Part shown: positions 12,594 to 63,370 of the stretch, one piece after another | How positions within the stretch are numbered: position 1 is the first letter of the stretch | Layout of the letters: every line of letters begins with the position of its first letter | Assembly: GCF_900110555.1 (NCBI RefSeq) | Contig: NZ_FOEE01000002.1 | Location: 124,001-188,000 of the forward strand | DNA from: Trujillonella endophytica | GTDB lineage: Bacteria > Actinomycetota > Actinomycetes > Mycobacteriales > Geodermatophilaceae | DNA length: 64,000 nucleotides | Reading direction: 5' to 3' | The notes under the pieces: model-generated | The model's database searches: none | What the model saw: the letters and a program-made list of their open reading frames with translations, nothing else | What the model was told of the DNA's origin: nothing | Made by a program: the position numbers and the translations under genes

Positions 12594-12970
12594 CGGACCT
12601 CCTGCACTGGATACGGCCTGCCGCACGCCTCGCCACTCGCGGCAGCCCAGCCCGGTGCCGGCGGTGCCGGCCGACGGGAGTGATGCGGCGGTGAGGAGGC
12701 GGTCCCCCACCGGTCAGTGACGGGGCTTCCGACTCCCCGGTCGACCCAGCAGTGACGTGACTCTCCTCCTGTCCTCCGAAGGGTATGAGCTATCGCTCGA
12801 TAGGGGAACCCCTCCGACCGAGATCGGCCACGCTCGCGGATGCCGCGCGTCGGCTTCGTGTCGGACGATCGCAGGAACTCGCTCGACCACGCACTCCGCC
12901 GAGGCGCGCACGTGTCTGCGCCGGCGGGCCACCCGACGATCCAGGTGGTCCAGGCGTGCGCCGCCGTCGG
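12594..12970. other. korA upstream leader region
   Basis: This 377-nt gap holds the perfect palindrome at 12791-12802 and presumably the korA promoter. No supported gene was found. Confidence 0.5.
12791..12802. promoter_or_regulatory. Perfect palindrome TATCG-CT-CGATA (TetR-type operator candidate)
   Basis: A perfect 5+2+5 palindrome, extendable by C/G to 14 nt (12790-12803), about 190 nt upstream of the korA start codon. It belongs to the recurrent TAnCG-N2-CGnTA set found across the window. Confidence 0.5.
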
Positions 12971-13993
12971 TCAGCCGCGGAGGATCTCGAGGAGGTCGGC
13001 GCCCGCTTCGTGCGGTGGTAGGTGCCCGACGCCTTCCAGCTCGACGTAGTCAGCCCCGGGGATGAGCTGCGCCAGGCGCATCCCGTTGCCGAGGGGCATC
13101 AGCGGGTCTCGATCACCGTGGACGACCGTGGTCGGGACGTCGATGCGGCGGAGCCGGTCGGAACCGTGCCAGGAACGGGCGGCCCGGAGTTGGTCGAGCA
13201 CCCGCGGCCGAGGTGTCACACGGCGGAGGATCTGCGACGCGATGTCGTCGAAGACCTCGGGATGGTCCTGGGCGAAGGACGGGGCCGCGTAGCTGCTCCA
13301 CAGGCCCTGCATGTGCTGGTGCAGGTCCACCCCGGGCAGGGGACGACCGAGGGAGGCCAGGAAGGGAGCGGGATCGGGGACGATCTGGGCGGGGACCGGT
13401 GGGGCCGTGCAGACGAGGACCAGCCGGTTCACCCGGTCCGGATGACGGAGGGTCAGCTCCTGGGCGACCATCCCGCCCATGGAGACGCCGAGCACCGTGG
13501 CGTCCTCGATGTCGCACGCACGCAGCACCTCGGCCGCGTCGTCGGCGAGATCGGCCATGGTGTACGGGGCCGGCGCGGACCGGGACCACCCCGTTCCTCG
13601 GTTGTCGACCCTGATCACCCGGAAGCGCTCTTCGAGGTCCCGAACCCATTCCTCGGGCCACACCAGCCCGCTCGCCGTCCATCCGTTCAGCAGGAGCAGA
13701 GCGGGACCGGCGCCACCCTCGTGCCAGTTCACGACCAGGCGCCGCCCGCGCCGGGAGGCGAGCCCGGCCGGGGACTCCCGTCGTTCTTGACGGCGGCGGC
13801 GCTGGTTGGCGGTACGCAGGCCGACGAGTCGCAGTTCCGACTCGATCAGGGTTCGCCAGGCCGCTTCGGTGCGGATGCCCATCGCCACGGTGCGTGCGAA
13901 GTGCGGGCTCGAGGCGAGCGGCTGGAGTGCCCGCGCCACCCGGAGCTGGAGGGAGTCGTTCCGGAGGTCGGCGCTCGCTGGATCCGCGTTCAT
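12971..13993 (-). CDS. Alpha/beta hydrolase
   Basis: A 340-aa serine hydrolase. The nucleophile elbow GVSMGG is near residue 170, the acid region HGDRDPL near 295 and the catalytic His in GVGHLPPHE near 322, giving a complete triad. VNWHEGGAGPALLLLNGW marks the oxyanion region. About 80 N-terminal residues precede the fold. The ATG at 13993 overlaps the CoA ligase stop by 4 nt, so it ends the PHA/acyl-CoA operon. A thioesterase, depolymerase or lactonase role is possible; the substrate is not evident. Confidence 0.8.
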   Translation of the reverse strand: MNADPASADLRNDSLQLRVARALQPLASSPHFARTVAMGIRTEAAWRTLIESELRLVGLRTANQRRRRQERRESPAGLASRRGRRLVVNWHEGGAGPALLLLNGWTASGLVWPEEWVRDLEERFRVIRVDNRGTGWSRSAPAPYTMADLADDAAEVLRACDIEDATVLGVSMGGMVAQELTLRHPDRVNRLVLVCTAPPVPAQIVPDPAPFLASLGRPLPGVDLHQHMQGLWSSYAAPSFAQDHPEVFDDIASQILRRVTPRPRVLDQLRAARSWHGSDRLRRIDVPTTVVHGDRDPLMPLGNGMRLAQLIPGADYVELEGVGHLPPHEAGADLLEILRG

Positions 13994-15549
13994 GCCAGTT
14001 GTCTCCTCAAGACCTTGCCGGTCGCTGTCCGTGGCAGTTCGTCGAGGAAGGCGAACTGGCGCGGAACCTTGTACCGGGCCAGACGCTCGGCGACGTAGGC
14101 CTTGAGGTCCTCGGGATCCAGCGAACGCCCGTCCTTGGCGACCACGACGGCCTTCAGTGCGCGCCCGAAGGTGGGGTCCTCCACCCCGATGACCACTGCT
14201 TCCTCGATGTCCGGGTGGTCGTTGAGCAGGTGTTCCACCTCGGTCGGATAGACGTTCTCTCCCCCCGAGACGATCATGTCGTCCTCGCGACCGTCGACGA
14301 ACAGCAGCCCGCGCCCGTCGAAGTGGCCGAGGTCGCCGGTGGAGAGCAGGCCGTCGACCGACTCCTTCCCACCGCCACCGGTATAACCGTCGAAGCGGGC
14401 CGCGTTGCCGACGAAGACGCGTCCGGTCTCACCCGCACCGGCCGGTGAGCCGGCCGGGTCGAGGACGGCCACCCGTACCCCGGTCGCGCGGCGTCCTGCG
14501 GTGGTCGGCGCAGCCCGGAGGTCGCGCGGCCCTGCGATCGTCGCGGCGGCGACCTCGGTCGAGCCGTAGACGTTGTAGAGGATCGGACCGAACCGGTCGA
14601 GGACCTCGGTCACCAACGGCCCGGGTATGGCGGACCCGCTCGCGGCGATGACCCTGAGCGACCAGGTCCGGAACCGGGCCAGCTCACGCGGCGGCAGGGA
14701 ACAGATGCGCTGCAGCATCGTCGGGACGAGGATCAACGCATCGGCGCGATGGGTGTCGACGAGCCCGAGGACGCCCGCGGGATCGAAGTGCGGTGCGGTG
14801 ACGATCGTCTCGGACAGACCCAACCCGATCAGCAGGCTGGCCAGGCCCCAGGCATGGAAGAAGGGCGCGGGCACGACGATTGTGTCGCGTGCCCGCAGGG
14901 GGATCGATCCGAGCAGGGCGCCGACTCCGTCCGCCGCCGCGCCGTCGGACGGGCGGCTCGCCCCCTTGGGCCGGCCGGTCGTACCGGACGTGAGAACGAC
15001 CAGGCGGCTGTGGCGCTGGGGACGGGGCAGCGTGGCGCGCCCCGATCCCTGCGTGGCGATCTTGCGGATCCGGGAGACGGAGATGGCCGGCGTCCCGCCC
15101 AGGGCCTGCGCGAACTCGTCGTCGTGCAGCACTAGGTCGATGCCCTCGGCGTCGATCGTGTCCTGCAGTTGAGCCGGGCCGAAGCTGGTGTTGAGCAGCA
15201 CGATGTCGGCGCCGAGGAGGGCGCCACCGAGGAGGGCGTGGACGAACCACGGCGAGTTCCGGCAGAGCACCCCGATCCGGCTCTCGGAGGTCAGCTCTCG
15301 CTTCGCGAGTTCGCTCGCCAGCGCGGTCGAACCCCGCCAGAGTTCGCGGTAGGTGACCTGCTCGCCGGCCGCGACGACGGCCGGTGCGTGGGGGTACCGC
15401 GCGACCGAGGCCGCCACCCCGGCCAATAGCCCGTTGCCGTACGGCAATGCCGCGACCGTCGCCCGCACCAACCGGTCCGGCCGCTCGATGATCGTCGCGT
15501 TGGCGCGGAGGAACGGCAACGAGTTCCGCGCCTTGTCGACCACCTTCAC
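13990..15549 (-). CDS. AMP-forming acyl-CoA synthetase (FadD-like)
   Basis: A 519-aa ANL-superfamily ligase that would activate a fatty or aromatic acid to its CoA thioester through an acyl-adenylate. The P-loop-like A3 motif LVVLTSGTTGRPKGA is present, as are YGSTE (A5), STGDLGHFDGRG with REDDMIVSGGENVYP (A7-A8), and PRTATGKVLRR with the terminal catalytic Lys (A10). All are intact. The GTG at 15549 overlaps the GNAT stop (GTGA). Position in a PHA-type operon suggests it feeds hydroxyacyl or fatty acyl chains. A longer ATG frame to 15597 has no support. Confidence 0.85.
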   Translation of the reverse strand: MKVVDKARNSLPFLRANATIIERPDRLVRATVAALPYGNGLLAGVAASVARYPHAPAVVAAGEQVTYRELWRGSTALASELAKRELTSESRIGVLCRNSPWFVHALLGGALLGADIVLLNTSFGPAQLQDTIDAEGIDLVLHDDEFAQALGGTPAISVSRIRKIATQGSGRATLPRPQRHSRLVVLTSGTTGRPKGASRPSDGAAADGVGALLGSIPLRARDTIVVPAPFFHAWGLASLLIGLGLSETIVTAPHFDPAGVLGLVDTHRADALILVPTMLQRICSLPPRELARFRTWSLRVIAASGSAIPGPLVTEVLDRFGPILYNVYGSTEVAAATIAGPRDLRAAPTTAGRRATGVRVAVLDPAGSPAGAGETGRVFVGNAARFDGYTGGGGKESVDGLLSTGDLGHFDGRGLLFVDGREDDMIVSGGENVYPTEVEHLLNDHPDIEEAVVIGVEDPTFGRALKAVVVAKDGRSLDPEDLKAYVAERLARYKVPRQFAFLDELPRTATGKVLRRQLA

Positions 15550-16103
15550 GCCTCGGCTCCGCTCTCCACCATGCCGATGGTGGCGAGCGCGGACCACGCC
15601 TGCTGCACCGAATGGGCGAGGATCAGGAGGTCGTGGAGGTGACCGTCGTCGTCCCGGACCTGATCGGTCAGGAGAGCCTCGGGGATGAAAGCGAGCTGCC
15701 GGAAGACCGCCGCGACCCCTTCCTGCTCAGCCAGCACCTCGACGGTGATCTTCTCCAAGCCCGCCGTCACCGCCGCCATCAACCCGCGCCGTGCCAGCGC
15801 TGCTCCGACGCCCCGGCCACGCTTGGCCGGGTCGACCACCATGCGGAACTCGCCGACGTGCCGTGACCAGCCAAGGCCCGGGATGACGGCGAGGAGGCCC
15901 GCGAGCTCGCCGTCGAGGTAGGCGAGGAAGGTCTGCGCGCCGTGCCGGGACCTCCAGATCGCCATCACGGCTGGGTCGCCGAGATCGCCCTTGAGGAAGG
16001 AGTACTCCCCTCGAGGAACCTTCTCGAGGAAGGACTGGACCGCCGGATCACCGTCCGGGCCGAGTTCTTCGATCCGGACGTCGGCCGGGGTGGGGTCTGC
16101 CAT
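15546..16103 (-). CDS. GNAT-family N-acetyltransferase
   Basis: A 185-aa acetyltransferase-fold protein. The acetyl-CoA pyrophosphate loop is visible as VVDPAKRGRGVGAALARRGL at about residues 88-107, preceded by the beta strand FLAYLDGELAGLLAVI. It starts at ATG 16103, 14 nt after the PhaC-like gene, and overlaps the CoA ligase. Being embedded in this operon suggests a regulatory or detoxifying role, such as lysine acetylation of the adjacent CoA ligase (a known control of ANL enzymes), but that is inference. Confidence 0.75.
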   Translation of the reverse strand: MADPTPADVRIEELGPDGDPAVQSFLEKVPRGEYSFLKGDLGDPAVMAIWRSRHGAQTFLAYLDGELAGLLAVIPGLGWSRHVGEFRMVVDPAKRGRGVGAALARRGLMAAVTAGLEKITVEVLAEQEGVAAVFRQLAFIPEALLTDQVRDDDGHLHDLLILAHSVQQAWSALATIGMVESGAEA

Positions 16104-16117
16104 GCGAGAGGTTCTCC

Positions 16118-17125
16118 TCACGTGAGTCCGGCCAGCCACTCGATGATCGAGGGCACGCACTTGGTGCGCGCCTGGCGGCCGATGAAGAGTCCTGCGTGAC
16201 CGGCCGGCAGGACGAGAGTGGTGAGATCGGCGTTGGAGAGCAGCTCTGCGAGGGGTGCGCTCGCCTCTGGCGGAACCAGGTGGTCCTTGGCACCCACGAC
16301 GCTCAGGACCGGGCACCGGACGTCGCCGAGACTGACGATCCGGTCGCCGACGGGAGCCGTGCCGCCGAGTGGGGCGCCTCCGGCGATGTAGTCGGTCGCG
16401 AGCTGACGGAACGCGGTGCCGGGGAAGGGGATGTGGTCGTTCGACCAACCCACCAGGGCGTTGTGGGCGGACAACGCCTCGTCGTCGGCCAGGCTCTGCC
16501 AGAGGTTCGAGTAGGTGGCGAGCGGAGCTGTCGGCTTGACGATGCGCAGGCTCTCCATGACCAACGACGCAGGGACGTTCCCGGTCTCGTCGACCAGGTC
16601 GTCCGGTCGGAGTCGCCCCTCCGCCAGCATCGTCGTCATGGGGCTGAGGTCCCGGAGCTTCACCGGGGTGGCCAGCGCGACGATGTTGCGCACCGGCATC
16701 TGCGGGTTGCCTGCCGTCGACAACAGGGCCAGCAGGGCCCCCATGCAGTACCCGAAGAGGGTGACGTCAGCCGACTGGGCGACACATGCTGCCGCCTCCA
16801 CGGCGCGAGGGAGGTAGTGGTCGGTGTAGCGGTCGATCCCGTTGTGCGCGTCGACCGGCTCCGGGATCCCCCAGTCGAGCAGGAAGACGTCGTGCCCGGC
16901 GTCCAGCAGGTCCTGCACCAGGCTGCTGCCGGGGCGGAGGTCGAAGACGTACGGCTTCGTCACGAGGCTCATGACGAGCACGATCGGGACCATCCCCGCC
17001 CGCTCCTCGCCGTGATATCGGTAGAGCACCACGTTGTCACGGCGCCACACCTCGGAACTGGGTGTCACCGCCAGCGGTCCCGTGGCCAGGCCGCCGACGT
17101 GTCGCAGTCCGTTGCGCGTCCGCAC
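16118..17125 (-). CDS. phaC: PhaC-like polyhydroxyalkanoate synthase subunit / hydrolase
   Basis: A 335-aa protein of the class III PHA synthase PhaC type. The lipase-like box has Cys as nucleophile (LFGYCMGALLAL), the acid is in VVGAKDHLVPPE, and the His in PAGHAGLFIG. The substrate-pocket strands (PIVLVMSLVTKPYVFDL, DVFLLDWG) match the family. The start is uncertain: GTG 17125 is the first canonical start, yet the in-frame codons upstream (17126-17194, ending ...DLLSRVTRELQRIQ) look like a genuine PhaC N-terminus but contain no ATG, GTG or TTG. Either a rare start codon or a small indel is involved. The small gene just upstream would supply the second subunit. Confidence 0.75.
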   Translation of the reverse strand: MRTRNGLRHVGGLATGPLAVTPSSEVWRRDNVVLYRYHGEERAGMVPIVLVMSLVTKPYVFDLRPGSSLVQDLLDAGHDVFLLDWGIPEPVDAHNGIDRYTDHYLPRAVEAAACVAQSADVTLFGYCMGALLALLSTAGNPQMPVRNIVALATPVKLRDLSPMTTMLAEGRLRPDDLVDETGNVPASLVMESLRIVKPTAPLATYSNLWQSLADDEALSAHNALVGWSNDHIPFPGTAFRQLATDYIAGGAPLGGTAPVGDRIVSLGDVRCPVLSVVGAKDHLVPPEASAPLAELLSNADLTTLVLPAGHAGLFIGRQARTKCVPSIIEWLAGLT

Positions 17126-17192
17126 CTGGATGCGCTGCAGTTCCCGGGTGACCCGCGACAGCAGGTCAGGAGAACTCGCCGGCGTCAGCGGG

Positions 17193-17522
17193 TCACCCCT
17201 CGCTCCGGGGCGCCGGCGGCTCGAGATCGGTCTCGACCGGGAGTCGCTCCTTCACCTGGTCATCGAGGCTGCGAACGCGGTTCTCCACCGCGGCGATCAC
17301 ACTGAGCAGTCGATTGACGTCGCTGGCCGTCGGCAGGTTCAACGCGTGCAGGAACCGCCGCGACGTCCGCTCCGTCCTCCGGCGGATCGCCTTCCGGGTC
17401 TGCTGGAACAGGCCCAGCGCGATGGCGAGGGCCTCGTGCTGCGAGACCCCTTCCAGGACCGGCGCGGCTACCCGGTCGGCTGCTTCCACCCCACGGCGCC
17501 ACAGGGGCTTGCTGGTCGTCAT
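17193..17522 (-). CDS. Small PHA-associated protein (PhaE/phasin-like)
   Basis: A 109-aa, largely helical protein. The C-terminal half LNLPTASDVNRLLSVIAAVE, continuing with NRVRSLDDQV, is a coiled-coil segment typical of PhaE/PhaR-type synthase partners and phasins (LNLPSRSDVNRLLERL...). It sits directly before the PhaC-like gene and is the first gene of the leftward operon ending at 12971. A perfect palindrome at 17590-17601 lies 68 nt upstream. It is shorter than classic PhaE, so it may be a reduced subunit or granule-binding phasin. Confidence 0.65.
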   Translation of the reverse strand: MTTSKPLWRRGVEAADRVAAPVLEGVSQHEALAIALGLFQQTRKAIRRRTERTSRRFLHALNLPTASDVNRLLSVIAAVENRVRSLDDQVKERLPVETDLEPPAPRSEG

Positions 17523-17589: not shown

Positions 17590-17601
17590 TAGCGAGCGCT
17601 A
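17590..17601. promoter_or_regulatory. Perfect palindrome TAGCG-AG-CGCTA (TetR-type operator candidate)
   Basis: A perfect 5+2+5 palindrome 68 nt upstream of the first gene of the PHA operon. It is one of the recurrent motif set. Confidence 0.5.
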
Positions 17602-17808: not shown

Positions 17809-18219
17809 GTGATCGCCCGGGTCGTCGACGAGCCGCTGTCAGTCGCCCAGCACGAGGATGCAGTCGCCGACGAAGCCGCCGGCGCCGTCGTCTGCTTCGC
17901 CGGTGTGGTCCGTGACCACGACGGCGGTCGGTCGGTGACCGAGCTCGAGTACGTCGGCCACCCCACCGCCGCCGACGTCATCCGGGGACTCGCTGAGGAG
18001 TTCGCTGCCCGGCCCGGGGTGCAGGCGGTCGCGGTCTCGCACCGGATCGGCCTGCTCGGCATCGGCGACGTCGCCCTGGCCTGCGCGGTCAGCGCCGCTC
18101 ACCGGGACGCGGCCTTCACCGCCTGCGCTGAGCTCGTCGACGAGGTGAAGAAGCGGCTGCCCATCTGGAAGCGGCAGGTATTCGCCGACGGCGAAGAGCA
18201 ATGGGTGGCCTGCCCCTGA
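17809..18219 (+). CDS. moaE: Molybdopterin synthase catalytic subunit
   Basis: A 136-aa MoaE. GAVVCFAGVVRDHDGGRSVT near residue 25, LEYVGHP, and AVAVSHRIGLLGIGDVALAC are all family signatures. The C-terminal ELVDEVKKRLPIWKRQVFAD contains the active-site lysines. It converts cyclic pyranopterin monophosphate to molybdopterin with MoaD as sulfur carrier. The GTG at 17809 was chosen because the fold begins there; the longer open frame upstream is rich in Arg/Pro and looks non-coding. It converges on moaD/moaA. Confidence 0.9.
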   Translation: MIARVVDEPLSVAQHEDAVADEAAGAVVCFAGVVRDHDGGRSVTELEYVGHPTAADVIRGLAEEFAARPGVQAVAVSHRIGLLGIGDVALACAVSAAHRDAAFTACAELVDEVKKRLPIWKRQVFADGEEQWVACP

Positions 18220-18467
18220 CGCGTCAGCGGAGGGCCCGGCGACGGGTCCATCCCCGGTGCGAGCGGACTGCTGTGCATCCGGGGCCGCCCTCTCTCCACC
18301 GCACCGGTAGGACCGGACGGTGCCCTCGACGTCGTACGCCGCCTGCTCAGCGCCGCGACCGTGTCCGCTGCGTCCCCCCGCATTGCCCGAAGACCTGCGC
18401 GGCGCGGCGGCTTGGGGGCCTTCCACCTCCCCCGAACCCGTTCATCCGCCCGCAGGTCGGTCGTCGG

Positions 18468-18716
18468 TCATCCGCCGGCAAAGGGTGGCAGCACGTCGAC
18501 GACGGTGCCCGGGGCCAGTGCCAGGCCGGGGTCGCGTGCCTGCTGGCCGTCGACCAGGAACGAGCAGGCGGTGAGCACCTTCTCCAGCCGGGGGCCGTGC
18601 GCGTCGGCGATCTGGCGGACCAGGTCGGCGAGCGTGGCTGCCGTCCGGTCCTCGGTCTCCACGCCGGCCGCGGCGCGGGCGCCGGCGAAGTAGCGGACGG
18701 TGACAGCCGAGCTCAC
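18468..18716 (-). CDS. moaD: Molybdopterin synthase sulfur-carrier subunit
   Basis: An 82-aa ubiquitin-like MoaD/ThiS-family protein. It opens with the first beta strand VTVRYFAGARAAAG and ends in PPFAGG, whose terminal Gly-Gly is adenylated and thiocarboxylated to donate sulfur. The GTG at 18716 lies 5 nt after the moaA stop. The closeness to moaA and the facing moaE favour MoaD over ThiS. Confidence 0.88.
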   Translation of the reverse strand: MSSAVTVRYFAGARAAAGVETEDRTAATLADLVRQIADAHGPRLEKVLTACSFLVDGQQARDPGLALAPGTVVDVLPPFAGG

Positions 18717-18721
18717 GGGAC

Positions 18722-19774
18722 TCAGCCGCCGATCGCCGACATGGGCCGGGTGGGCTGCAGGAAGCTCGGGTCGTCGATCCCGTGACCGGGCAGCTTGCTC
18801 AGGGTGGCGATCCGCCAGCGGTCGGCGATCTCGTCGTCGGTGGCACCCGACCGCAGCGCCGCCCGCAGGTCGGACTCCTCGCGGGCGAAGAGGCAGTTGC
18901 GGATCTGGCCGTCGGCGGTCAGCCGGGTGCGGTCGCAGGTGCCGCAGAACGACCGGGTGACCGAGGCGATGATCCCGACCGTGGACGGTCCGCCGTCGAC
19001 CAGCCAGCGCTCCGCGGGGGCCGAGCCGCGTGCCTCGGTGTCCGGCGTGAGCGTGTGGGCGACGGAGAGGCGCTCGAGGATGTCCTCGGCGGTGACCATC
19101 CGGCCGCGGGTCCAGGCGTGGTGGGCGTCCAGCGGCATCTGCTCGATGAACCGCAGCTGGTAGCCGTGCTCCAGGCAGTAGTCCAGCAGCGGGACGGCGT
19201 CGACGTCGTTGATCCCGTGCAGCAGGACGGCGTTGACCTTGACCGGCGTCAGCCCGGCGTCCTGAGCGGCGGCCATCCCGGCGAGGACGTCGCCGAGCCG
19301 GTCGCGCATGGTCAGCTGCTTGAACCGGACCGGGTCCAGGGTGTCGAGGCTGACGTTGATCCGGTCCAGCCCGGCCTCGGCCAGTGCGGGGGCGACCCGG
19401 GCCAGGCCGATCGCGTTCGTGGTGAGGCTGACCTCGGGGCGGGGCCGCAGGGCGGTGGCGGCCGCGACGATGCCGGGCAGGCCCGGGCGCAGCAGCGGCT
19501 CGCCGCCGGTGAAGCGGACCTCGCGGACACCGAGGCGCTCCACGCCGATGCGCACCAGCCGGACGATCTCCTCGTCGGTCAGCACCTCGACCTTGGGCAG
19601 CCAGTCCAGCCCCTCGGGCGGCATGCAGTACGTGCAGCGCAGGTTGCACCGGTCGGTCAGCGAGACCCGCAGATCGGTGGCGGTCCGGCCGTAGCGGTCG
19701 ACCAGCCCGCCGGTGCCCGGCGCCGGGTCGGCGCGGCGGAGCACCGGGTCCGGGAGCGGGCTCGACGAGGTCAC
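18722..19774 (-). CDS. moaA: GTP 3',8-cyclase (molybdenum cofactor biosynthesis)
   Basis: A 350-aa radical SAM enzyme that converts GTP to 3',8-cyclo-GTP with MoaC. The SAM cluster motif CNLRCTYC is followed by MPPEGLDWLP; the C-terminal second cluster is visible as SFCGTCDRTRLTADGQIRNC, and the chain ends in Gly-Gly, required for activity in the family. GTG 19774 gives the usual distance to the conserved GLVDRYGR; an ATG 10 codons upstream (19804) is possible. Neither has a strong ribosome-binding site, so translation may be leaderless. Confidence 0.92.
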   Translation of the reverse strand: MTSSSPLPDPVLRRADPAPGTGGLVDRYGRTATDLRVSLTDRCNLRCTYCMPPEGLDWLPKVEVLTDEEIVRLVRIGVERLGVREVRFTGGEPLLRPGLPGIVAAATALRPRPEVSLTTNAIGLARVAPALAEAGLDRINVSLDTLDPVRFKQLTMRDRLGDVLAGMAAAQDAGLTPVKVNAVLLHGINDVDAVPLLDYCLEHGYQLRFIEQMPLDAHHAWTRGRMVTAEDILERLSVAHTLTPDTEARGSAPAERWLVDGGPSTVGIIASVTRSFCGTCDRTRLTADGQIRNCLFAREESDLRAALRSGATDDEIADRWRIATLSKLPGHGIDDPSFLQPTRPMSAIGG

Positions 19775-25605: not shown

Positions 25606-25617
25606 TTACGAGCGTTA
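25606..25617. promoter_or_regulatory. Palindrome TTACG-AG-CGTTA between pyc and fbiC
   Basis: A near-perfect member of the recurrent motif, followed directly by another half-site (CGATAG at 25621-25626). It lies 44 nt from the pyc start and 47 nt from the fbiC start, so one regulator could act on both divergent promoters. Confidence 0.45.
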
Positions 25618-32495: not shown

Positions 32496-32507
32496 TAGCG
32501 TACGATC
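32496..32507. promoter_or_regulatory. Palindrome-like TAGCG-TA-CGATC in divergent promoter region
   Basis: A degenerate member of the recurrent motif, next to a perfect CTAGCTAG (32491-32498), between the divergent genes at 32383 and 32532. Confidence 0.35.
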
Positions 32508-34387: not shown

Positions 34388-34435
34388 GAGTTCTCCTACG
34401 GGCCGGACGTGGATCCACCACATGGGCGTGGTATC

Positions 34436-44100: not shown

Positions 44101-44112
44101 TAACGAGCGATA
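44101..44112. promoter_or_regulatory. Palindrome TAACG-AG-CGATA in divergent region
   Basis: A member of the recurrent motif, 22 nt (about two helical turns) from a second copy at 44123-44134. It lies 104 nt from the CoA-transferase start and 117 nt from the acyl-CoA dehydrogenase start. Confidence 0.5.
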
Positions 44113-44122
44113 GATCCGTCCC

Positions 44123-44134
44123 TAGCGATCGCTC
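44123..44134. promoter_or_regulatory. Palindrome TAGCG-AT-CGCTC in divergent region
   Basis: Second copy, differing at one base from the perfect TAGCG-AT-CGCTA found at 49215-49226. The helical phasing with the first copy suggests cooperative binding. Confidence 0.5.
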
Positions 44135-49214: not shown

Positions 49215-49226
49215 TAGCGATCGCTA
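49215..49226. promoter_or_regulatory. Perfect palindrome TAGCG-AT-CGCTA
   Basis: A perfect 5+2+5 palindrome 26 nt upstream of the HSD10-like start codon, well placed to overlap the promoter or transcription start. It is the best-preserved example of the recurrent motif. Confidence 0.55.
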
Positions 49227-51295: not shown

Positions 51296-51307
51296 TAGCA
51301 TGCGCTA
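51296..51307. promoter_or_regulatory. Near-perfect palindrome TAGCA-TG-CGCTA
   Basis: One mismatch from the recurrent motif, followed by CTAGCTAG (51305-51312). It lies 236 nt upstream of the LLM gene and touches the end of the LysR gene at 51309. Confidence 0.4.
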
Positions 51308-51308
51308 G

Positions 51309-52407: not shown

Positions 52408-53268
52408 GTGTCCGACCACGACGACGACGCGGCTGCGGCCGACTGGACGACGTGGACGGGCCGGTCGTCCACGTCGACGGCCCACCTCCACCCGGACCAG
52501 GCCAACCGCATGGCCGTGACCCTCGACCGCCCTCCGACGTTCGTCGCGGGACAGGCTCTGCCGCCCGCGTGGCACTGGCTGTACTTCCACGACTTCGTCG
52601 AGAGCTCCAGGCTCGGGCCTGACGGCCATCCCGCCCGCGGCATCGTGATGCCGCCGGTGCCGCTCGAGCGCCGCATGTGGGCCGCCGGGGACCTGCGGTT
52701 CCACGAGCCGCTGCGCCTCGGTGAGACCGCCACGCGGGTGAGCACCATCAGCGACATCACGGCGAAGAGCGGCCGCAGCGGCCCCCTCTACTTCGTCACC
52801 GTCGAGCACGAGCTCCGCGTCGGGGACCGCCTGGCCGTCGCGGAGACGCAGAAGATCGTCTACCGCGAGCTGACCGCAGAGACCGGCGGCGCCGCCGCGC
52901 CTGCGCCGGTGGACCCGGAGTTCTCGCGGACCTGGCAGTTCGCCAGCACCGCGTTGTTCCGCTACTCCGCGCTGACCTTCAACAGCCACCGGATCCACTA
53001 CGACGTCGAGTACGCCCGTGACGTCGAGGGCTACCCCGGACTCGTCGTGCACGGACCGCTCCTGGCGACGCTCCTCGCCGATCTCGCCGAGAGCCAGGGC
53101 GACCGGCTCGCCGCGCTCGACTACCGGGCGCGGTCGCCCCTGTTCAGCCCCGACGCCTTCACGGTCAACGGCCGCCGTGCCGGCACTGCGGCGACCCTGT
53201 GGGCCACCTCGGGCAGCGGTTCCCTCGCCATGGAAGCAACAGCCACGTACCGCCAGGAGGCGCAGTGA
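52408..53268 (+). CDS. FAS1-like/MaoC-type acyl-CoA hydratase, mesaconyl-C4-CoA or itaconyl-CoA hydratase-like
   Basis: A 286-aa double-hotdog dehydratase. The N-terminal FAS1-type domain begins WTTWTGRSSTSTAHLHPDQA; the C-terminal hotdog has FNSHRIHYDVEYARDVEGYP and LVVHGPLLATLL, containing the catalytic His/Asp region. This build is that of mesaconyl-C4-CoA hydratase and of the itaconyl-CoA hydratase (Ich) of itaconate degradation. GTG 52408 is chosen because AAGGGGG precedes it and the family starts MSD...W..W.G; an in-frame ATG at 52375 is the alternative. First gene of the LysR-controlled operon. Confidence 0.82.
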   Translation: MSDHDDDAAAADWTTWTGRSSTSTAHLHPDQANRMAVTLDRPPTFVAGQALPPAWHWLYFHDFVESSRLGPDGHPARGIVMPPVPLERRMWAAGDLRFHEPLRLGETATRVSTISDITAKSGRSGPLYFVTVEHELRVGDRLAVAETQKIVYRELTAETGGAAAPAPVDPEFSRTWQFASTALFRYSALTFNSHRIHYDVEYARDVEGYPGLVVHGPLLATLLADLAESQGDRLAALDYRARSPLFSPDAFTVNGRRAGTAATLWATSGSGSLAMEATATYRQEAQ

Positions 53269-54419
53269 TGAACGACTTCACCGACGACGAGCTGTCCGTC
53301 ATCGAGCTGGTGCGTACCTGGGTCGACCGTGAGGTCAAGCCGGTCGTCCAGGAACTCGAGCACGCCAACACCTATCCCGAAGACCTCATCGAGCAGATGA
53401 AGGCGATGGGCATCTTCGGCCTCGCCATCCCGGAGCCCTGGGGCGAGGTCGCCGTCAGCGCGCCCTGCTACGCGGCGGTGACGGCGGAGCTCGCCCGCGG
53501 GTGGATGAGCCTCGCCGGCGCCATGGGCGGGCACACCGTCGTCGCCAAGCTCCTGCTGGCCTACGGCACGGACGAGCAGAAGGCCACGTACCTGCCCCGC
53601 ATGGCGACCGGCGACGTCCGGGCGACCATGGCCCTCACCGAGCCCGGCGGCGGGTCCGACCTCCAGGCGATGCGCACGGTCGCGCGCACGGACGGCGACG
53701 ACTACGTCATCAACGGCTCCAAGACGTGGATCTCCAACGCACGGAGGTCCCAGCTCATCGCGCTGCTGTGCCGTACGGACGCCGACGCGCGTCCTGCCCA
53801 CAAGGGGATCAGCATCCTCCTCGTCGAGAAGGGGCCCGGCTTCGAGGTCTCGCGCGACCTTCCCAAGCTCGGCTACAAGGGCGTCGAGTCGTGCGAGCTC
53901 GCGTTCTCCGACTTCCGGGTCCCCCGCTCGTCCCTCCTGGGGACCGAGGAGGGGCGCGGGTTCGCCCAGATGATGCGCGGGCTCGAGATGGGGCGGATCC
54001 AGGTCGCGTCGCGGGCACTGGGGGTCGCGCAGGCCGCACTCGACGACTCGGTCCGGTACGCGCAGGAGCGCCAGTCCTTCGGCAAGCCGATCTGGCAGCA
54101 CCAGTCGATCGGCAACTACCTCGCCGACATGGCCACCGAGCTCGAGGCGGCACGGCAGCTGACCCAGTACGCGGCGAGGCGGTACGAGTCCAGCGCCCGC
54201 GCGGACAAGGAAGCCAGCATGGCGAAGCTCTTCGCGTCGGAGACCGCGATGAAGATCGCGCTCAGCGCCGTCCGGATCCACGGTGGGTACGGCTACTCGA
54301 CGGAGTTCGACGTCGAGCGGTACTTCCGCGACGCACCGCTGATGATCGTCGGTGAGGGGACGAACGAGATCCTCCGGGGCGTCATCGCCCGTCAGGTGGT
54401 CGAGAGCGCGCCCATCTGA
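53268..54419 (+). CDS. Acyl-CoA dehydrogenase
   Basis: A 383-aa acyl-CoA dehydrogenase. MALTEPGGGSDLQAMRTVA is the FAD/substrate motif; IQVASRALGVAQAAL and RYAQERQSFGKPIWQHQSI the central ones; MIVGEGTNEILRGVIARQ supplies the catalytic Glu in G-E-G-T. Its ATG shares a base with the hydratase stop (TGATG), so it is translationally coupled. An acyl-CoA dehydrogenase is also encoded in the itaconate cluster of P. aeruginosa, where its role is not essential to the core route. Confidence 0.92.
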   Translation: MNDFTDDELSVIELVRTWVDREVKPVVQELEHANTYPEDLIEQMKAMGIFGLAIPEPWGEVAVSAPCYAAVTAELARGWMSLAGAMGGHTVVAKLLLAYGTDEQKATYLPRMATGDVRATMALTEPGGGSDLQAMRTVARTDGDDYVINGSKTWISNARRSQLIALLCRTDADARPAHKGISILLVEKGPGFEVSRDLPKLGYKGVESCELAFSDFRVPRSSLLGTEEGRGFAQMMRGLEMGRIQVASRALGVAQAALDDSVRYAQERQSFGKPIWQHQSIGNYLADMATELEAARQLTQYAARRYESSARADKEASMAKLFASETAMKIALSAVRIHGGYGYSTEFDVERYFRDAPLMIVGEGTNEILRGVIARQVVESAPI

Positions 54420-54482
54420 TGCCGGCCCCGGCTCCGGCGGCCGCCACGACCCCCTCCCCCGCCTCCCCTTGAGGACTCCACT

Positions 54483-55628
54483 GTGCTGCCCCTCCACGGA
54501 ATCACCGTCGTCTCGCTCGAGCAGGCCGTCGCCGCCCCGTTCGCGACGCGCCAGCTCGCCGACCTCGGCGCGCGGGTCATCAAGGTCGAGCGGCCGGGTG
54601 CGGGCGACTTCGCCCGCGACTACGACCGATCGGTCAACGGTGAGGCGAGCTACTTCGTCTGGCTGAACCGGGGCAAGGAGAGCATCGAGCTCGACCTCAA
54701 GGCACCCGAGGACCGCGCGGTCCTCGACGCCATGCTGGACGAGGCCGACGTCCTCCTGCAGAACCTGATCCCGGGGGCCGTGGCCCGCCTGGGGCTCGAC
54801 GCGGAGACGCTCAGGTCCCGGCGCCCCGAGCTGATCCACTGCTCCATCTCCGGCTACGGGTCGTCGGGCCCCTATCGCAGCAAGAAGGCCTACGACCTGC
54901 TCGTCCAGTGCGAGGCCGGGATCGTCTCCGCCACCGGGAGCCCCGACGAGCCGGCCAAGGTCGGGATCTCGATCGCGGACATCGCCACGGGCATGTACGC
55001 CTACACCGGCGTCCTCACGGCCCTCTACGAGCGGACCCGCACCGGTCTGGGCAGCACCATCGAGGTCGCCATGCTGGACGCCCTGGGGGAATGGATGATG
55101 CAGCCGGCGTACTACTCCGTGTACGGGGGCCGACCCACGCAGCGGACCGGGGCACGACACAGCTCGATCGCCCCGTACGGCCCCTACCGGACCGGTGACG
55201 GCTCGGCGGTGTTCCTGGGCGTCCAGAACGACCGCGAGTGGGCCCTCGTGTGCCGCGAGGTGCTCGGCCGTCCCGATCTCGTCGACGACCCCCGCTTCGC
55301 CCACAACACCGAGCGGGTGGAGAACAACGACCAGATCACCCCGCTGATCGAGGCCGCATGGAGCGGACGGACAGCCGACGAGGCCGTCGAGAAGCTCGAC
55401 GATGTCGGGATCGCCTGTGCCCGGCTGCGCACGCCCGCGGAGTTCTTCGAGCACCCACAGCTCCAGGCCCGCGACCGCTGGCGGAACGTCGACACCGCGG
55501 GCGGTCCCATCCAGGCCCTCCTCCCACCCGTCACCGTGGCCGGCCGCGAGCCGGCGATGGGTCCGGTGCCCGCGCTGGGGGCAGACAACGCCGCCCTCCG
55601 CGCCGAGTTCGCGCCGAAGCCGTCATGA
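54483..55628 (+). CDS. CaiB/BaiF family CoA-transferase (itaconate CoA-transferase-like)
   Basis: A 381-aa type III CoA-transferase. LHGITVVSLEQAVAAPFATR is the N-terminal motif and VGISIADIATGMYAYTGVL contains the catalytic Asp. It lies between the acyl-CoA dehydrogenase and the lyase genes; in the itaconate pathway the equivalent enzyme (Ict) moves CoA from succinyl-CoA to itaconate. Substrate specificity cannot be read from sequence. Its stop overlaps the next start by 4 nt. GTG 54483 is used. Confidence 0.88.
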   Translation: MLPLHGITVVSLEQAVAAPFATRQLADLGARVIKVERPGAGDFARDYDRSVNGEASYFVWLNRGKESIELDLKAPEDRAVLDAMLDEADVLLQNLIPGAVARLGLDAETLRSRRPELIHCSISGYGSSGPYRSKKAYDLLVQCEAGIVSATGSPDEPAKVGISIADIATGMYAYTGVLTALYERTRTGLGSTIEVAMLDALGEWMMQPAYYSVYGGRPTQRTGARHSSIAPYGPYRTGDGSAVFLGVQNDREWALVCREVLGRPDLVDDPRFAHNTERVENNDQITPLIEAAWSGRTADEAVEKLDDVGIACARLRTPAEFFEHPQLQARDRWRNVDTAGGPIQALLPPVTVAGREPAMGPVPALGADNAALRAEFAPKPS

Positions 55629-56542
55629 ACCACGCCATGCCGACGACGACGTCCGAGCTCGGCGAGACGCACCGCATCCCTCGCTCGTGCCTCGTGGTCC
55701 CGGCCTCCGACTCCCGCAAGGTGGAGAAGGCGCTGGGAACCGCGGCGGACGAGGTCGTCCTCGACCTCGAGGACGCCGTCGCTCCTTCGGCCAAGGACGC
55801 GGCCCGAGCGAGCGCGGCAGAGGTCCTACGGGCCGGCCCGGGCAGAGCGGTGGCGGTGCGGATCAACCAGATCGGGACGCGCTGGTGCCACCACGACGTA
55901 CTCGAGATGGTCGCCGCCGCTCCGGGACGGCTCACCCTGGTGGTCCCCAAGGTCGAGTCCGCAGCGGACGTCGGGTTCATCGACCGGTTGGTCCGTGGAG
56001 CCCTGGCCGATCGGTCCACGAGTCTGCCTGAGGTGTCCCTGGACGTCCTCGTGGAGACCGCGGCAGCGCTCCGGGATCTCGACGCCGTCGTCACCGCGAG
56101 CCCGCTCGTGCGGGCCGTGGTGGTCGGATACGCCGACCTCGGTGCCGACCTCGGACGAGACGCCGGGGGGGACCCGACGCTGTGGGACGCCGTGCGGCAC
56201 CAGGTCGTGACGGCCGTACGCGCCGCCGGACGTGTGGGACTGGACGGTCCCTGGCTCTCGACCGCGGCAGACGCCCCGTTCCTCCGGGACCGGGAGCGCG
56301 CCCGGGCCTTCGGGCTCGACGGCACCTGGGTGATCCACCCGGCTCAGGTCGCCGAGGCGACCCGGATCTTCAGCCCCTCCGCCGACGAGGTCGCGTGGGC
56401 CCGACGAGTGCTCGGGGCCCTCGACGCGTCGGTCGCGGACGGCGCTGGGGCCGTCGCCCTGGACGGTCAGATGCTCGACGAGGCGGTGGCCGTCCGGGCC
56501 CGATCGGTCCTCGCCAAGGCCGGCGGGCGGCTCACTTCCTGA
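55625..56542 (+). CDS. HpcH/HpaI-CitE-family lyase (citramalyl-CoA lyase-like)
   Basis: A 305-aa TIM-barrel lyase of the CitE/malyl-CoA lyase group. RSCLVVPASDSRKVEKAL opens it; EVVLDLEDAVAPSAKDAAR, VRINQIGTRW and LTLVVPKVESAADV carry the conserved acidic metal-ligand and Arg residues; GYADLGADLGRD is the family loop. (S)-Citramalyl-CoA lyase (Ccl) completes itaconate breakdown to acetyl-CoA and pyruvate. ATG 55625 overlaps the CoA-transferase stop (ATGA). It overlaps the convergent enoyl-CoA hydratase-like gene by 11 nt. Confidence 0.85.
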   Translation: MNHAMPTTTSELGETHRIPRSCLVVPASDSRKVEKALGTAADEVVLDLEDAVAPSAKDAARASAAEVLRAGPGRAVAVRINQIGTRWCHHDVLEMVAAAPGRLTLVVPKVESAADVGFIDRLVRGALADRSTSLPEVSLDVLVETAAALRDLDAVVTASPLVRAVVVGYADLGADLGRDAGGDPTLWDAVRHQVVTAVRAAGRVGLDGPWLSTAADAPFLRDRERARAFGLDGTWVIHPAQVAEATRIFSPSADEVAWARRVLGALDASVADGAGAVALDGQMLDEAVAVRARSVLAKAGGRLTS

Positions 56543-57290: not shown

Positions 57291-57380
57291 CCACGTCCCT
57301 CTGCTCTTGGTCGCGGGGACCGAACCTTGGCTCGACGGGTCCCGAGGAGTCCCGACTTCGCCCGACGGCCGTGCCGGTAC

Positions 57381-57393
57381 CTAGCGCTAGTTA
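57381..57393. promoter_or_regulatory. CTAGCGCTAG palindrome with adjacent GTTA half
   Basis: A perfect CTAGCGCTAG (57381-57390) followed by GTTA; TAGCG-CT-AGTTA fits the recurrent motif poorly but resembles the site at 63359-63370. Upstream of the enoyl-CoA hydratase-like gene. Confidence 0.35.
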
Positions 57394-57611: not shown

Positions 57612-57623
57612 GACCGCTCGTTA
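57612..57623. promoter_or_regulatory. Half-conserved palindrome GACCG-CT-CGTTA upstream of the TetR gene
   Basis: One conserved half (CGTTA) of the recurrent motif, 41 nt before the TetR start, nested in a hairpin CCGCT-N5-AGCGG (57614-57628). A possible autoregulatory site. Confidence 0.4.
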
Positions 57624-57663: not shown

Positions 57664-58290
57664 ATGACCGCCGTAGACGCAGTGCCGACCGACTTCGACT
57701 GGCGGACGTACCCCGACCCGCCCATCGCTCCGATCCTCGCCGCGGCGCTGACCCACTTCCAGCAGGACGGCTACCACGGGACCACGGTCCGCAAGATCGC
57801 GGCCGAAGTGGGGCTCACGATGCCGACCCTCTACTACCACTACGGCAACAAGGAGGGCCTCCTCTTCGCCCTCCTCGACATCGCCATGGACGACTTCTGG
57901 GCCCATGGCCACGCATGCCTCGAGGAAGCCGGCACCGACGTCCAGAAGAGGTTCGAGAACTTCATCAGCTCGGTCGCCCTGCACTACACCCATCGCCGCG
58001 ACCTGGCGATGCTGCACGACGAGTCGCGGTTCCTCGGCCCCGACTTCCGCGTGAAGTACCTGGAGCGGCGGAACATGGTGAACGAGGTGCTGGAGGGCCT
58101 GATCAAGGACGGGGTCGCCGAAGGCGTCTTCGACGTCGACGACAGCCACCTCACGTCGCTGGCCCTCCTCGGCATGCTCGGGGGCATCCTGGACTGGTAC
58201 CGCGACAAGGGCCCGCTGTCGGCTGCCGACATCGCCAACAGGTACACCCGTTACGCCGTGCGGATCGTCTCGAAGCCCGCCGCAGCCTGA
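57664..58290 (+). CDS. TetR-family transcriptional regulator
   Basis: A 208-aa TetR regulator. The helix-turn-helix is residues about 38-62 (GTTVRKIAAEVGLTMPTLYY, then HYGNKEGLL). The C-terminal domain resembles fatty-acid/acyl-CoA-responsive TetR proteins such as KstR-like members in layout only. It is the only TetR gene inside the catabolic island and is the best local candidate to bind the TAnCG-N2-CGnTA palindromes. It converges with the CoA ligase gene. Confidence 0.88.
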   Translation: MTAVDAVPTDFDWRTYPDPPIAPILAAALTHFQQDGYHGTTVRKIAAEVGLTMPTLYYHYGNKEGLLFALLDIAMDDFWAHGHACLEEAGTDVQKRFENFISSVALHYTHRRDLAMLHDESRFLGPDFRVKYLERRNMVNEVLEGLIKDGVAEGVFDVDDSHLTSLALLGMLGGILDWYRDKGPLSAADIANRYTRYAVRIVSKPAAA

Positions 58291-60997: not shown

Positions 60998-61009
60998 GAA
61001 CGCTCGTTA
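60998..61009. promoter_or_regulatory. Palindrome-like GAACG-CT-CGTTA
   Basis: A member of the recurrent motif with one mismatch, 68 nt upstream of the ADC-family gene and downstream of the aldehyde dehydrogenase stop. Confidence 0.45.
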
Positions 61010-61073: not shown

Positions 61074-62552
61074 TCACCGCATGACAAAGGGACTCCCGGC
61101 CGGCGCTCCGGTGTTCATCCAGACCGTCTTGGTCTCGAGGTACTCGTCCACGGCGGAGATGCCGTTCTCGCGGCCGATGCCCGAGTCCTTCACGCCACCG
61201 AACGGTGCCATGAAGCTTACCGCCCGATAGGTGTTGACCCAGACGGTGCCGGCCTGGATCCGCTCGCTCATCCGGAATGCCCGCCCGATGTCCGAGGTCC
61301 ACACGCCGGCGCCCAGGCCGTAGAGCGAGTCGTTGGCGATGCGGACGGCGTCGTCCTCGTCGTCGAACGGGATGACGGCGAGCACCGGCCCGAAGACCTC
61401 CTCCTGCGCGATCCGCATGCCGTTGTCGACGCCGGTGAAGATCGTGGGCTCGACGAACCACCCGTTCCCGCACTCGGGTCTGTCCGCGGGACGGCCACCC
61501 AGAGCCAGCGTGGCGCCCTCGGCCTGCGCGACGCCGATGTAGTCGAGGACCTTCTGGTACTGCGGACGGGTGGTGACCGGCCCGACCTGGGTCTCGGCGT
61601 CCATCGGGTTGCCCATGCGGGCCGTCCGGCTCATGGCGACGACCCGCTCGACCACCTCGTCGTGCACCGAGGACTGGACGAGGAGGCGGGATCCGGCGAT
61701 GCAGCTCTGGCCGGTGGCGGCGAAGATCCCCGACACCACACCGTTCACCGCGGCGTCCAGGTCGGCGTCACCGAAGACGATGTTCGGGGACTTCCCACCC
61801 AGCTCGAGGGTGAAGCGCTTGAGGTTGCGGGCCGCCTGTGCACCGATGTGGCGACCCGTGGTGTCCGAGCCGGTGAACCCGACCTTCCGCACCAGGGGGT
61901 GCTCGATGAGCGGCGCACCCACCTCGGCACCGAAGCCGGTCACGACGTTGACGACCCCTGCCGGGAGCCCCGCCGCCTCCATGACGCGGACGAGCTCGAT
62001 CGTCGAGGCACTCGTGAACTCCGACGGCTTGATGACGACGGTGCACCCGGCGGCCAGCGCCGGTGCGAGCTTCCAGGCCAGGAGCATCAGGGGGGAGTTC
62101 CACGGCGTGATGATGGCGACGACGCCGAGCGGCTCGCGCCGCGTGAACGTGAAGTAGCCGGGCTTGTCCATCGGGATGACGGTGCCCTCGATCTTGTCCG
62201 ACAGCCCGCCGTAGTAGCGGAACCACTCGGGCAGGTACGCGACCTGTCCCCGCATCTCGGCCAGCAGCTTGCCGTTGTCGCGCACCTCGAGCTCGGCGAG
62301 GCGATCGATGTTCGCAGCGATGCCGTCCGCGACCCTGTTCAGGACGAGCCCCCGGGCCGTATGGGTGAGCGTCGACCAGGGACCCCGAGTCAGGGCCTGG
62401 TGCGCCGCCGTCACGGCGGCGTCGACATCCGACCCTCCGCCGCGCGCGACCTCGGCCCAGGCACTGCCCTGGTAGGGGTCCTCCGTCTCGAACCACTCCC
62501 CCGAGGCGGGCAGCCGGTCTCCACCGTCGACGTGCATGGGAAATCTCTGCAT
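61074..62552 (-). CDS. NAD(P)-dependent aldehyde dehydrogenase
   Basis: A 492-aa aldehyde dehydrogenase. The general base Glu is in TLELGGKSPNIVF, the nucleophilic Cys in ATGQSCIAGSRLL, and the oxyanion Asn in ITPWNSPLM; FGPVLAVIPF and the C-terminal GRENGISAVDEYLETKTVW are intact. ATG 62552 has GGAGGA just upstream; a longer ATG at 62582 is less supported. It oxidises an aldehyde, perhaps from the LLM, SDR or AKR enzymes, to the acid activated by the nearby CoA ligase. Confidence 0.93.
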   Translation of the reverse strand: MQRFPMHVDGGDRLPASGEWFETEDPYQGSAWAEVARGGGSDVDAAVTAAHQALTRGPWSTLTHTARGLVLNRVADGIAANIDRLAELEVRDNGKLLAEMRGQVAYLPEWFRYYGGLSDKIEGTVIPMDKPGYFTFTRREPLGVVAIITPWNSPLMLLAWKLAPALAAGCTVVIKPSEFTSASTIELVRVMEAAGLPAGVVNVVTGFGAEVGAPLIEHPLVRKVGFTGSDTTGRHIGAQAARNLKRFTLELGGKSPNIVFGDADLDAAVNGVVSGIFAATGQSCIAGSRLLVQSSVHDEVVERVVAMSRTARMGNPMDAETQVGPVTTRPQYQKVLDYIGVAQAEGATLALGGRPADRPECGNGWFVEPTIFTGVDNGMRIAQEEVFGPVLAVIPFDDEDDAVRIANDSLYGLGAGVWTSDIGRAFRMSERIQAGTVWVNTYRAVSFMAPFGGVKDSGIGRENGISAVDEYLETKTVWMNTGAPAGSPFVMR

Positions 62553-62738: not shown

Positions 62739-63269
62739 TCAGCGCCATTCGATCCACGAGCGGGCGAAGTCGATGGTCTTGATGTACCACCGCTGGTCGT
62801 CCAGCCGCTCGTAGGTCTCGTGGTAGTACCCCATGCCGTGCATGAACCGAACGGGAGAGCCCTCCGGCCACCAGGCGTAGTCCTCCATCGGCCAGATCGC
62901 CTTCGCGGAGGTGCTCGACGTCCGCTCGATCTCCGGCACGAACAGGTGGTGCACGGTGCGGTTGTTCACCGCGATCGTCTCGCCGAACGACTGGATGGCC
63001 TCTCGTCCGACCAGCGGCCAGTCGAAGGCGAACAGCTGATCGAGGTACTCGAGCGAGAAGCCCGGTACGGGAACGCGCTCGCCGGTGAAGGGGTCCCGTG
63101 CGACACCGGACTCGCTCTCGTCGACTCGCGCGTCCGTCGTGAACAGAGACGCCCACCGCTTCCAGTCCTTGTTGTCGACGCAGTAGGCGTAGGCCGCCTT
63201 CAGCTGCTTGATCTCCTCGATCGCCGCGAGATCGTCGGCGGAGAACTTGCCGTGGGTGGGGCCGGTCAT
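62739..63269 (-). CDS. SnoaL-like (NTF2-fold) protein
   Basis: A 176-aa SnoaL-fold protein paralogous to 1927-2418: AIEEIKQLKAAYAYCVDNKD, then WASLFTTDARVDE, and the late YYHETYERLDDQRWYIKTID. The conserved Tyr/His/Asp residues in these blocks would line the pocket. It probably acts in the same kind of pathway as the other two SnoaL-fold proteins here. A palindrome at 63359-63370 is 90 nt upstream. Function unknown. Confidence 0.82.
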   Translation of the reverse strand: MTGPTHGKFSADDLAAIEEIKQLKAAYAYCVDNKDWKRWASLFTTDARVDESESGVARDPFTGERVPVPGFSLEYLDQLFAFDWPLVGREAIQSFGETIAVNNRTVHHLFVPEIERTSSTSAKAIWPMEDYAWWPEGSPVRFMHGMGYYHETYERLDDQRWYIKTIDFARSWIEWR

Positions 63270-63358
63270 CCTCGCTCGCTTTCCGCCTCGGCGTGCAGCT
63301 CGAGACCCGGTGGACGGACCCCGAGCAGCAAGACCACACCGGGCCGACGATGCCTAGT

Positions 63359-63370
63359 TAGCGCTGGCTA
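63359..63370. promoter_or_regulatory. Near-perfect palindrome TAGCG-CT-GGCTA
   Basis: One mismatch from the recurrent motif and embedded in a longer imperfect dyad CTAGTTAGCGCTGGCTAG (63354-63371). It lies upstream of the SnoaL-fold gene. Confidence 0.45.

Follow-up and report, generated by a model that had tools for sequence, protein, structure and literature searches.

Local TetR regulons for catabolic clusters are already known, and they are the background for the case made here: that a 12-letter palindrome, TAnCGnnCGnTA, recurring in a 64,000-nucleotide stretch of Trujillonella endophytica (positions 124,001 to 188,000 of contig NZ_FOEE01000002.1, here the window, with its host contig called C20), is the operator of the TetR-type regulator g106 of a 91-kb catabolic island. 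KstR2 (mycobacterial cholesterol) has the operator AnCAAGnnCTTGnT, a palindrome with a 2-bp centre, and a local catabolic regulon of 15 genes and three promoters (PMC3068626), while BkaR, another mycobacterial TetR, is autoregulated, is associated with acyl-coenzyme A (acyl-CoA) related genes and has the operator GTTA(N)T(N4)A(N)TAAC (PMC3920632). From Thermus thermophilus, PfmR (TTHB023) is a likely repressor with the selected consensus (a/c)Y(g/t)A(A/C)YGryCR(g/t)T(c/a)R(g/t) (PMC7022988), and PaaR (TTHA0973) has the homology-derived operator CNAACGNNCGTTNG, which contains AnCGnnCGnT, and the selected consensus AACnAACGTTnGTT (PMC6651687); its effector is phenylacetyl-CoA according to a paper title in the reference list of the latter article.

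Among these, PfmR (3vpr) is the nearest solved structure to g106 both by sequence (E 4e-21) and by fold (rank 1), at an identity of 29% that makes this a likeness and not a claim of orthology. Its published consensus and the island motif have the same AnYG-n2-CRnT core and 2-bp centre, and the island motif contains the AnCG-n2-CGnT core of PfmR/PaaR-type operators; it differs from PfmR in its outer T...A pair and in a 91-kb catabolic regulon instead of scattered fatty-acid genes. PaaR, which governs the phenylacetate pathway, resembles the island system in its operator core. KstR2 is alike in its near fold, its palindrome with a 2-bp centre and its local catabolic regulon, but its operator differs, and the island motif does not fit AnCAAGnnCTTGnT. 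AibR (5k7h), another near fold, was solved with its effector isovaleryl-CoA (entry title) and offers a model for release by acyl-CoA. BkaR is similar in kind, as a TetR with acyl-CoA related genes, but has a different operator. Table 1 of PMC3920632 also gives, between Rv0575c and Rv0576, a palindrome to which BkaR fails to bind and for which the authors allow an unidentified regulator; it contains TAGCGCTCACTA, one mismatch from the island motif. In searches of one open-access library the printed motif came up in three papers, all via the two Thermus consensus strings, the form with three CG steps was not found, and context searches of listings named no regulator of this kind. The variant proposed here is an island-wide regulon on a mobile element with duplicated cofactor and anaplerotic genes and an operator common to several genera.

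The motif is real, exceeds chance and marks promoters of the island. Written as TANCGNNCGNTA, it occurs exactly five times in the window (12791, 17590, 44101, 49215 and 61218), where 0.05 occurrences of TAnCGnnCGnTA are expected and no more than one was seen in any of 100 dinucleotide shuffles; with at most one mismatch there are 22 sites against 6.7 expected, a number reached by 0 of 100 shuffles. The window holds the following sites:

12791-12802: candidate operator, exact, about 200 bp upstream of korA.
17590-17601: candidate operator, exact, between g71 and moaE.
25606-25617: candidate operator, one mismatch, between the divergent pyc and fbiC.
32496-32507: candidate operator, one mismatch, between an acyl-CoA dehydrogenase gene and SnoaL-like g84.
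34432-34447: candidate 16-bp operator TAnCGnnCGnnCGnTA, between thiolase g85 and SDR g86.
41454-41469: candidate 16-bp operator, upstream of enoyl-CoA hydratase g91.
44101-44134: two candidate operators 22 bp apart (44101 exact, 44123 one mismatch), between CaiB-type CoA transferase g92 and acyl-CoA dehydrogenase g93.
49215-49226: candidate operator, exact and a perfect palindrome, upstream of HSD10-like SDR g97.
51296-51307: candidate operator, one mismatch, about 240 bp upstream of LLM g99 and right after the stop of a LysR gene.
57378-57393: overlapping weak candidate operators in the enoyl-CoA hydratase/TetR intergenic region.
57612-57623: candidate operator, one mismatch, 40 bp upstream of the TetR gene.
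60998-61009: candidate operator, one mismatch, upstream of ADC-like g108.
61218-61229: exact match within aldehyde dehydrogenase gene g109, probably chance.
63359-63370: candidate operator, one mismatch, upstream of SnoaL-like g110.

The original prediction, made by eye, had placed the palindrome in at least twelve intergenic regions, and the window sites indeed fill 12; all 14 of its coordinates are among the 22 sites with at most one mismatch. Its grading by strength held in part: 12791, 17590 and 49215 are exact, but 25606, 44123, 51296 and 63359, which it had set beside them, carry one mismatch, and 44101, which it called weaker, is exact. It overlooked the exact match at 61218, which is probably chance because the 87% identical Williamsia gene has no exact site inside. 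The 22-nt spacing that it reported between 44101 and 44123 is correct, although at that promoter Williamsia has one site listed. The 16-bp form TAnCGnnCGnnCGnTA stands at four places, two in the window (34432 and 41454) and two beyond it (C20:193165-193180 and C20:201219-201234), and each 16-mer comprises two overlapping 12-mers shifted by 4 bp (34432/34436, 41454/41458), giving three CG steps. Upstream of the relatives of g117/g118 and g91, where the island has a 16-mer, Williamsia has the plain 12-mer; the longer form may hold two TetR dimers.

The genome-wide search that the prediction had called for placed 11 of the 13 exact sites in the genome (4.87 Mb, 34 contigs) on the island, from C20:136791 to 213924, and only two outside it; the motif written backwards, used as a control, has 8 exact matches in the same genome. 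With at most one mismatch the motif is less frequent than this control (370 versus 535), so weak matches are common background, yet their density is about five times higher in the island (33 sites assigned to it) than outside. Only 15% of an 85-kb box (C20 132-217 kb) is intergenic DNA, yet it holds 10 of the 11 exact and 17 of the 22 one-mismatch sites there (binomial p ~6e-8 for the exact sites); two sites, at 217967 and 219790, lie within the island yet are counted as outside in this tally. Gene calls came from a home-made codon-usage caller, which makes starts and intergenic fractions approximate. The impression that the sites almost never lie inside genes thus stands, and across the 204 kb of host genome compared, the result is the opposite of the equal coding and intergenic frequency that had been named as grounds for abandoning the regulon. 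As a guard against an eye-picked pattern, all 256 palindromes of the same shape were counted in intergenic DNA: TAnCGnnCGnTA has the highest count in the island (10 versus 6 for the runner-up), in the Williamsia cluster (12 versus 2) and in an Arthrobacter cluster (8 versus 3), and is outside the top five in the island flanks. An upstream site is present for 30 of 77 island genes versus 3 of 106 flanking genes. Among half-site spacings from 0 to 14 the 2-bp centre is preferred; a spacing of 10 (17 matches in TetR loci) was discarded as mainly Streptomyces sequence of another form.

The 91-kb stretch to which the sites are confined is an integrative island in a tRNA-Asn gene, and the window covers most of it. 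Its left end and integrase lie in the window:

4690-4728 (C20:128690-128728): attL at the left island end, a direct repeat (39 bp) of the 3' part of tRNA-Asn.
4880-6022, plus strand: tyrosine integrase of the island (PF00589, PF22022).

The second copy of the 39-bp repeat lies 91,281 bp further on, at C20:219971, 32 kb beyond the window, and contains the 3' part of the tRNA-Asn gene at C20:219972-220045. An integrase at one end and a tRNA 3'-end repeat at both, 91.3 kb apart, are what a tRNA-targeted integrative island presents, and G+C in 6-kb steps is 0.69-0.72 inside versus 0.72-0.78 outside. A Pfam scan of 70 of the 77 called island proteins found no conjugation genes. In a same-genus genome, G237, a single alignment (query 532-1198, 82%) spans the junction of the joined flanks, and a tRNA-Asn lies there; it is not a clean empty site, because integrase-like DNA adjoins that tRNA. 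In a second same-genus genome, G241, the flank match stops short of the junction. The integrase-like DNA beside the tRNA-Asn of G237 (C10:4010-4536) is 67% identical to the island integrase, and the tRNA looks like an integration hot spot. Left of the island, C20:128104-128536 (about window 4104-4536, overlapping g62) is 97% identical over 433 bp to C13:62830-63262, probably a recent duplication outside the island.

Two regulator genes in the window bear on the question of what binds the motif:

57664-58290, plus strand: TetR-type regulator g106, proposed operator binder (TetR_N and PF17932; model predicted local distance difference test score, pLDDT, 94).
51309-52295, minus strand: LysR-type regulator, matched by none of the genes called in the Williamsia and Arthrobacter clusters.

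On comparative grounds, g106 is the best-supported candidate. Its Pfam matches place it in the TetR family (PF00440 at 59.2 bits, cut-off 24; PF17932 at 86.9, cut-off 26.4), no other TetR turned up when 70 of the 77 called island proteins were scanned, and the AlphaFold model of g106 (pLDDT 94) is almost all helix, ranking by fold with PfmR (3vpr), then a Rhodococcus TetR, KstR2 and AibR with isovaleryl-CoA. Against 16 named TetR equivalogs of NCBIfam (FadR, FasR, MftR and others) it reaches at best 49.3 bits, where the cut-off is 200.

The motif accompanies relatives of g106 in two partly overlapping sets: 29 loci from other genomes of the order (TetR relatives at 34-51% identity) and 78 named loci from a TetR alignment scan (1.47 Mb). 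In the first, an exact site lies within 1.5 kb of the TetR relative in 15 of 29 loci, falling in 9 of 16 genera by genus labels, and nine of ten control patterns that we chose score 0-2. In the second, there are 76 exact sites versus 2, 7, 8, 10 and 14 for five chosen controls; 48 of 78 loci have a site anywhere, 47 an intergenic one and 27 one in the near stretch around the TetR gene, and 72 of the 76 sites fall in the 13% of the DNA that is intergenic. Within the intergenic DNA of these loci the motif is first of the 96 palindromes of equal G+C (72, next 8) and second of all 256 (72 versus 74 for an all-G+C CGnCG form), and in the whole 29 loci it is again first at equal G+C (15, next 11). 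The signal is one of local clusters and not of a genome-wide excess. Two same-genus genomes without a TetR match at E 1e-30 contain 3 and 5 exact sites, which are scattered. On plasmids, the relatives found for the TetR, the HsaA-like enzyme and one P450 were all below 60% identity; in the one hit region examined, the TetR relative adjoins MCE and enoyl-CoA hydratase genes, unlike the island cluster.

Clusters in two other genera carry the comparison further. Williamsia soli has a TetR 60-61% identical to g106, and 12 of its 33 exact genome sites crowd into 43 kb of one contig, in a cluster that contains relatives of 28 island genes (49-90% identity) in a different gene order. With a site defined as at most one mismatch within 300 bp upstream, 29 island/Williamsia gene pairs divide into 15 with a site in both, 3 in the island only, 1 in Williamsia only and 10 in neither, the relative of g84 being among those with an upstream site; 19 of 42 Williamsia cluster genes have one, versus 0 of 57 flanking genes. 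Arthrobacter sp. B6 has 9 of its 19 genome sites within 75 kb (G398:C1:489-564 kb), in a cluster that encodes two TetR relatives (59 and 55%) as well as relatives of the island thiolase, SDR, CoA ligase and enoyl-CoA hydratase. Its upper pathway differs (10 proteins scanned), with an OYE-type reductase, hydantoinase-type proteins, a flavin monooxygenase, a transhydrogenase, a TRAP transporter and a PYC_OADA carboxylase part; the TetR and its operator therefore seem to go with a common lower acyl-CoA pathway beneath differing upper pathways. Co-occurrence, the Williamsia footprint, the PfmR fold and the intergenic palindrome ranks together support the original proposal of one TetR regulon with the regulator at 57664.

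Several observations weigh against this proposal. The sites at the TetR's own promoter are imperfect, both in the island and in Williamsia, and divergent genes share sites, so that the 15 of 29 pairs are not 15 independent events. In the 29-locus set one control, GANCGNNCGNTC, has 20 matches versus 15 for the motif. Counted over entire loci, whose DNA is mostly coding, the motif comes only 14th (29 loci) and 39th (78 loci) of all 256 palindromes, and at equal G+C it is third of 96 in the 78 loci; near the TetR gene, at equal G+C, it is first but level (32 versus 31 for GAnGA). No exact site occurs in 30 of the 78 TetR loci, including 21 of 22 Streptomyces loci, and in the 20.6-kb locus of Nocardia aurantia (TetR 59%) the single exact site is some 5 kb away from the gene. 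In 11 of 11 genome-wide counts in other genomes, the backwards control is the commoner of the two patterns. We left our support unchanged because the whole-locus and intergenic palindrome ranks balance.

The genes behind the candidate operators describe a catabolic pathway. Common to the island and Williamsia are an ABC importer, two P450s, a ferredoxin with its reductase, an esterase, a CoA ligase, an aldehyde dehydrogenase, an ADC-like protein, a double-length CaiB-type transferase, an acyl-CoA dehydrogenase pair, hydratases, LLM and F420 enzymes, an SCP2-type thiolase with a ChsH2-like OB protein, and an HsaAB-like pair that scores below its family cut-offs; a molybdenum oxidoreductase is 90% identical between the two. 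Up to 32 kb to the right of the window the proposed regulon takes in the ABC importer, the two P450s, the molybdenum enzyme and ribF/ribBA. The nearest solved structure to the P450s is a CYP125 ancestor, the g94 acyl-CoA dehydrogenase is nearest Tcur3483 and 4x28, which we take to be a steroid acyl-CoA dehydrogenase, and 6ok1, presumably Ltp2, is second nearest for the SCP2-type thiolase and ChsH2-like OB protein. These genes look like side-chain logic for a bulky cyclic acid, and the substrate is therefore probably cyclic and terpenoid- or steroid-like. An estrogen-type pathway, an idea that came from korAB alone, was rejected, as korAB is absent from the Williamsia cluster. At E 1e-90 the HsaA-like g90 was found in its own genome only, among 397 sampled genomes of the order and 394 of the class. 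The row of MaoC-like, acyl-CoA dehydrogenase, CaiB and HpcH/CitE genes at 52408-56542 resembles a methylsuccinyl/mesaconyl/citramalyl-CoA route. A further group of genes stands at the left of the window:

13990-17522, minus strand: CoA ligase, GNAT, polyhydroxyalkanoate (PHA)-synthase-like gene and small phasin-like gene (g68-g71).

The PHA-synthase-like gene scores 222 bits on TIGR01836, under the cut-off of 365, and the phasin-like label was given by eye to a protein without a Pfam match.

The island also carries cofactor and anaplerotic genes of its own, several of them extra copies:

8894-12593, minus strand: g64 F420/NADP oxidoreductase-like, g65 KorB and g66 KorA (extra 2-oxoacid:ferredoxin oxidoreductase).
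17809-19774: extra molybdopterin genes, moaE on the plus strand, moaD-like and moaA on the minus strand.
22173-25556, minus strand: pyruvate carboxylase.
25664-28264, plus strand: fbiC, F420 synthesis, second copy.

The link between 2-oxoacid oxidation, anaplerosis and F420 synthesis that had been called unusual is accounted for by the island's own copies of the genes concerned. The other fbiC copy (C20:412666-415254) is 93% identical, three other korA copies in the genome are 87, 73 and 70% identical, the second moaA (C27) is 90% and the other ribBA 54%. About 1 kb after the other fbiC copy, at C20:416419-416890, lie two fbiC-like pieces, the first with an in-frame stop. For fbiC, DNA similarity to the other copy starts at about the coding region (from 149683 on the contig, with the operator at 149606), and for korAB it runs to 136549, again about the coding region, with the operator at 136791. 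The six stretches taken from around the other copies contain no exact site; their two one-mismatch matches each fall in sequence alignable to island coding DNA. Directly upstream of the moaA-moaD pair there is no operator, the one at this locus being at moaE. One possible reading, which we hold tentatively and at somewhat less than even confidence, is operator capture, in which a mobile island acquired copies of housekeeping coding sequences typical of the lineage (fbiC, korAB, moaDA, perhaps rib and pyc) and set them beside or behind the operator of a catabolic TetR, giving substrate-inducible F420, molybdopterin, flavin and oxaloacetate, with the operator growing in CGNN steps from 12 to 16 bp.

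We consider it highly probable that TAnCGnnCGnTA is the operator of the island TetR (57664-58290). The regulator would bind TAGCGATCGCTA DNA, one dimer per 12-bp palindrome, and repress the promoter behind it until an acyl-CoA intermediate of the pathway probably frees it, so that the whole tRNA-Asn-integrated island would be switched on as one regulon. This would extend over uptake, the two P450s with ferredoxin and reductase, CoA activation, the two-subunit acyl-CoA dehydrogenase, hydratases, the retro-aldolase/thiolase, the F420-linked LLM enzymes, the molybdenum enzyme and the island's korAB, pyc, fbiC, moaE and rib genes.

An alternative interpretation is that the TetR governs the acyl-CoA pathway genes only, and that little depends on the sites at korA, moaE/PHA, pyc/fbiC and ribF. 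No gene called in the Williamsia cluster is related to the island's korAB, pyc, fbiC, moaA/D/E, ribF/ribBA, greA or PHA genes or to one of its ferredoxins, so the sites at these four loci fall outside the conservation comparison, and those at korA, moaE and ribF are about 140-250 bp from the called start. We nevertheless consider a regulon so restricted unlikely, because exact sites occur at three of the four loci (12791; 17590; C20:213812 and 213913), where the genome outside the island has only two in all, and the pyc/fbiC site is about 50 bp from both called starts. A second alternative keeps the regulon and changes the regulator: the LysR (51309-52295) or a factor from outside the island would bind the motif, as might be suggested by the site at 51296 abutting the 3' end of the LysR gene and by the imperfect sites at the TetR's own promoter. 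This is improbable, since the intergenic motif accompanies the TetR family over many genera and is present in Williamsia and Arthrobacter clusters none of whose called genes matches the LysR, on which ground the LysR was rejected. That the palindromes are a compositional or mobile repeat with no regulatory role (for example a restriction site or nucleoid signal) can be dismissed as extremely improbable: GCGATCGC, a common palindrome, is contained in some motif copies, but the third and central bases vary, the sites favour promoters and intergenic over coding DNA, they recur upstream of the same genes in the rearranged cluster of another genus, and the shuffle expectation is 0.05.

For an actinobacterial TetR subfamily whose relatives span many genera, this palindrome provides a likely operator, hence a predicted regulon, and a simple DNA signature by which catabolic clusters of the subfamily may be found. 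The proposed placing of cofactor and anaplerotic gene copies under a catabolic switch further suggests self-supply by a mobile pathway with heavy demand for F420, molybdopterin and flavin.

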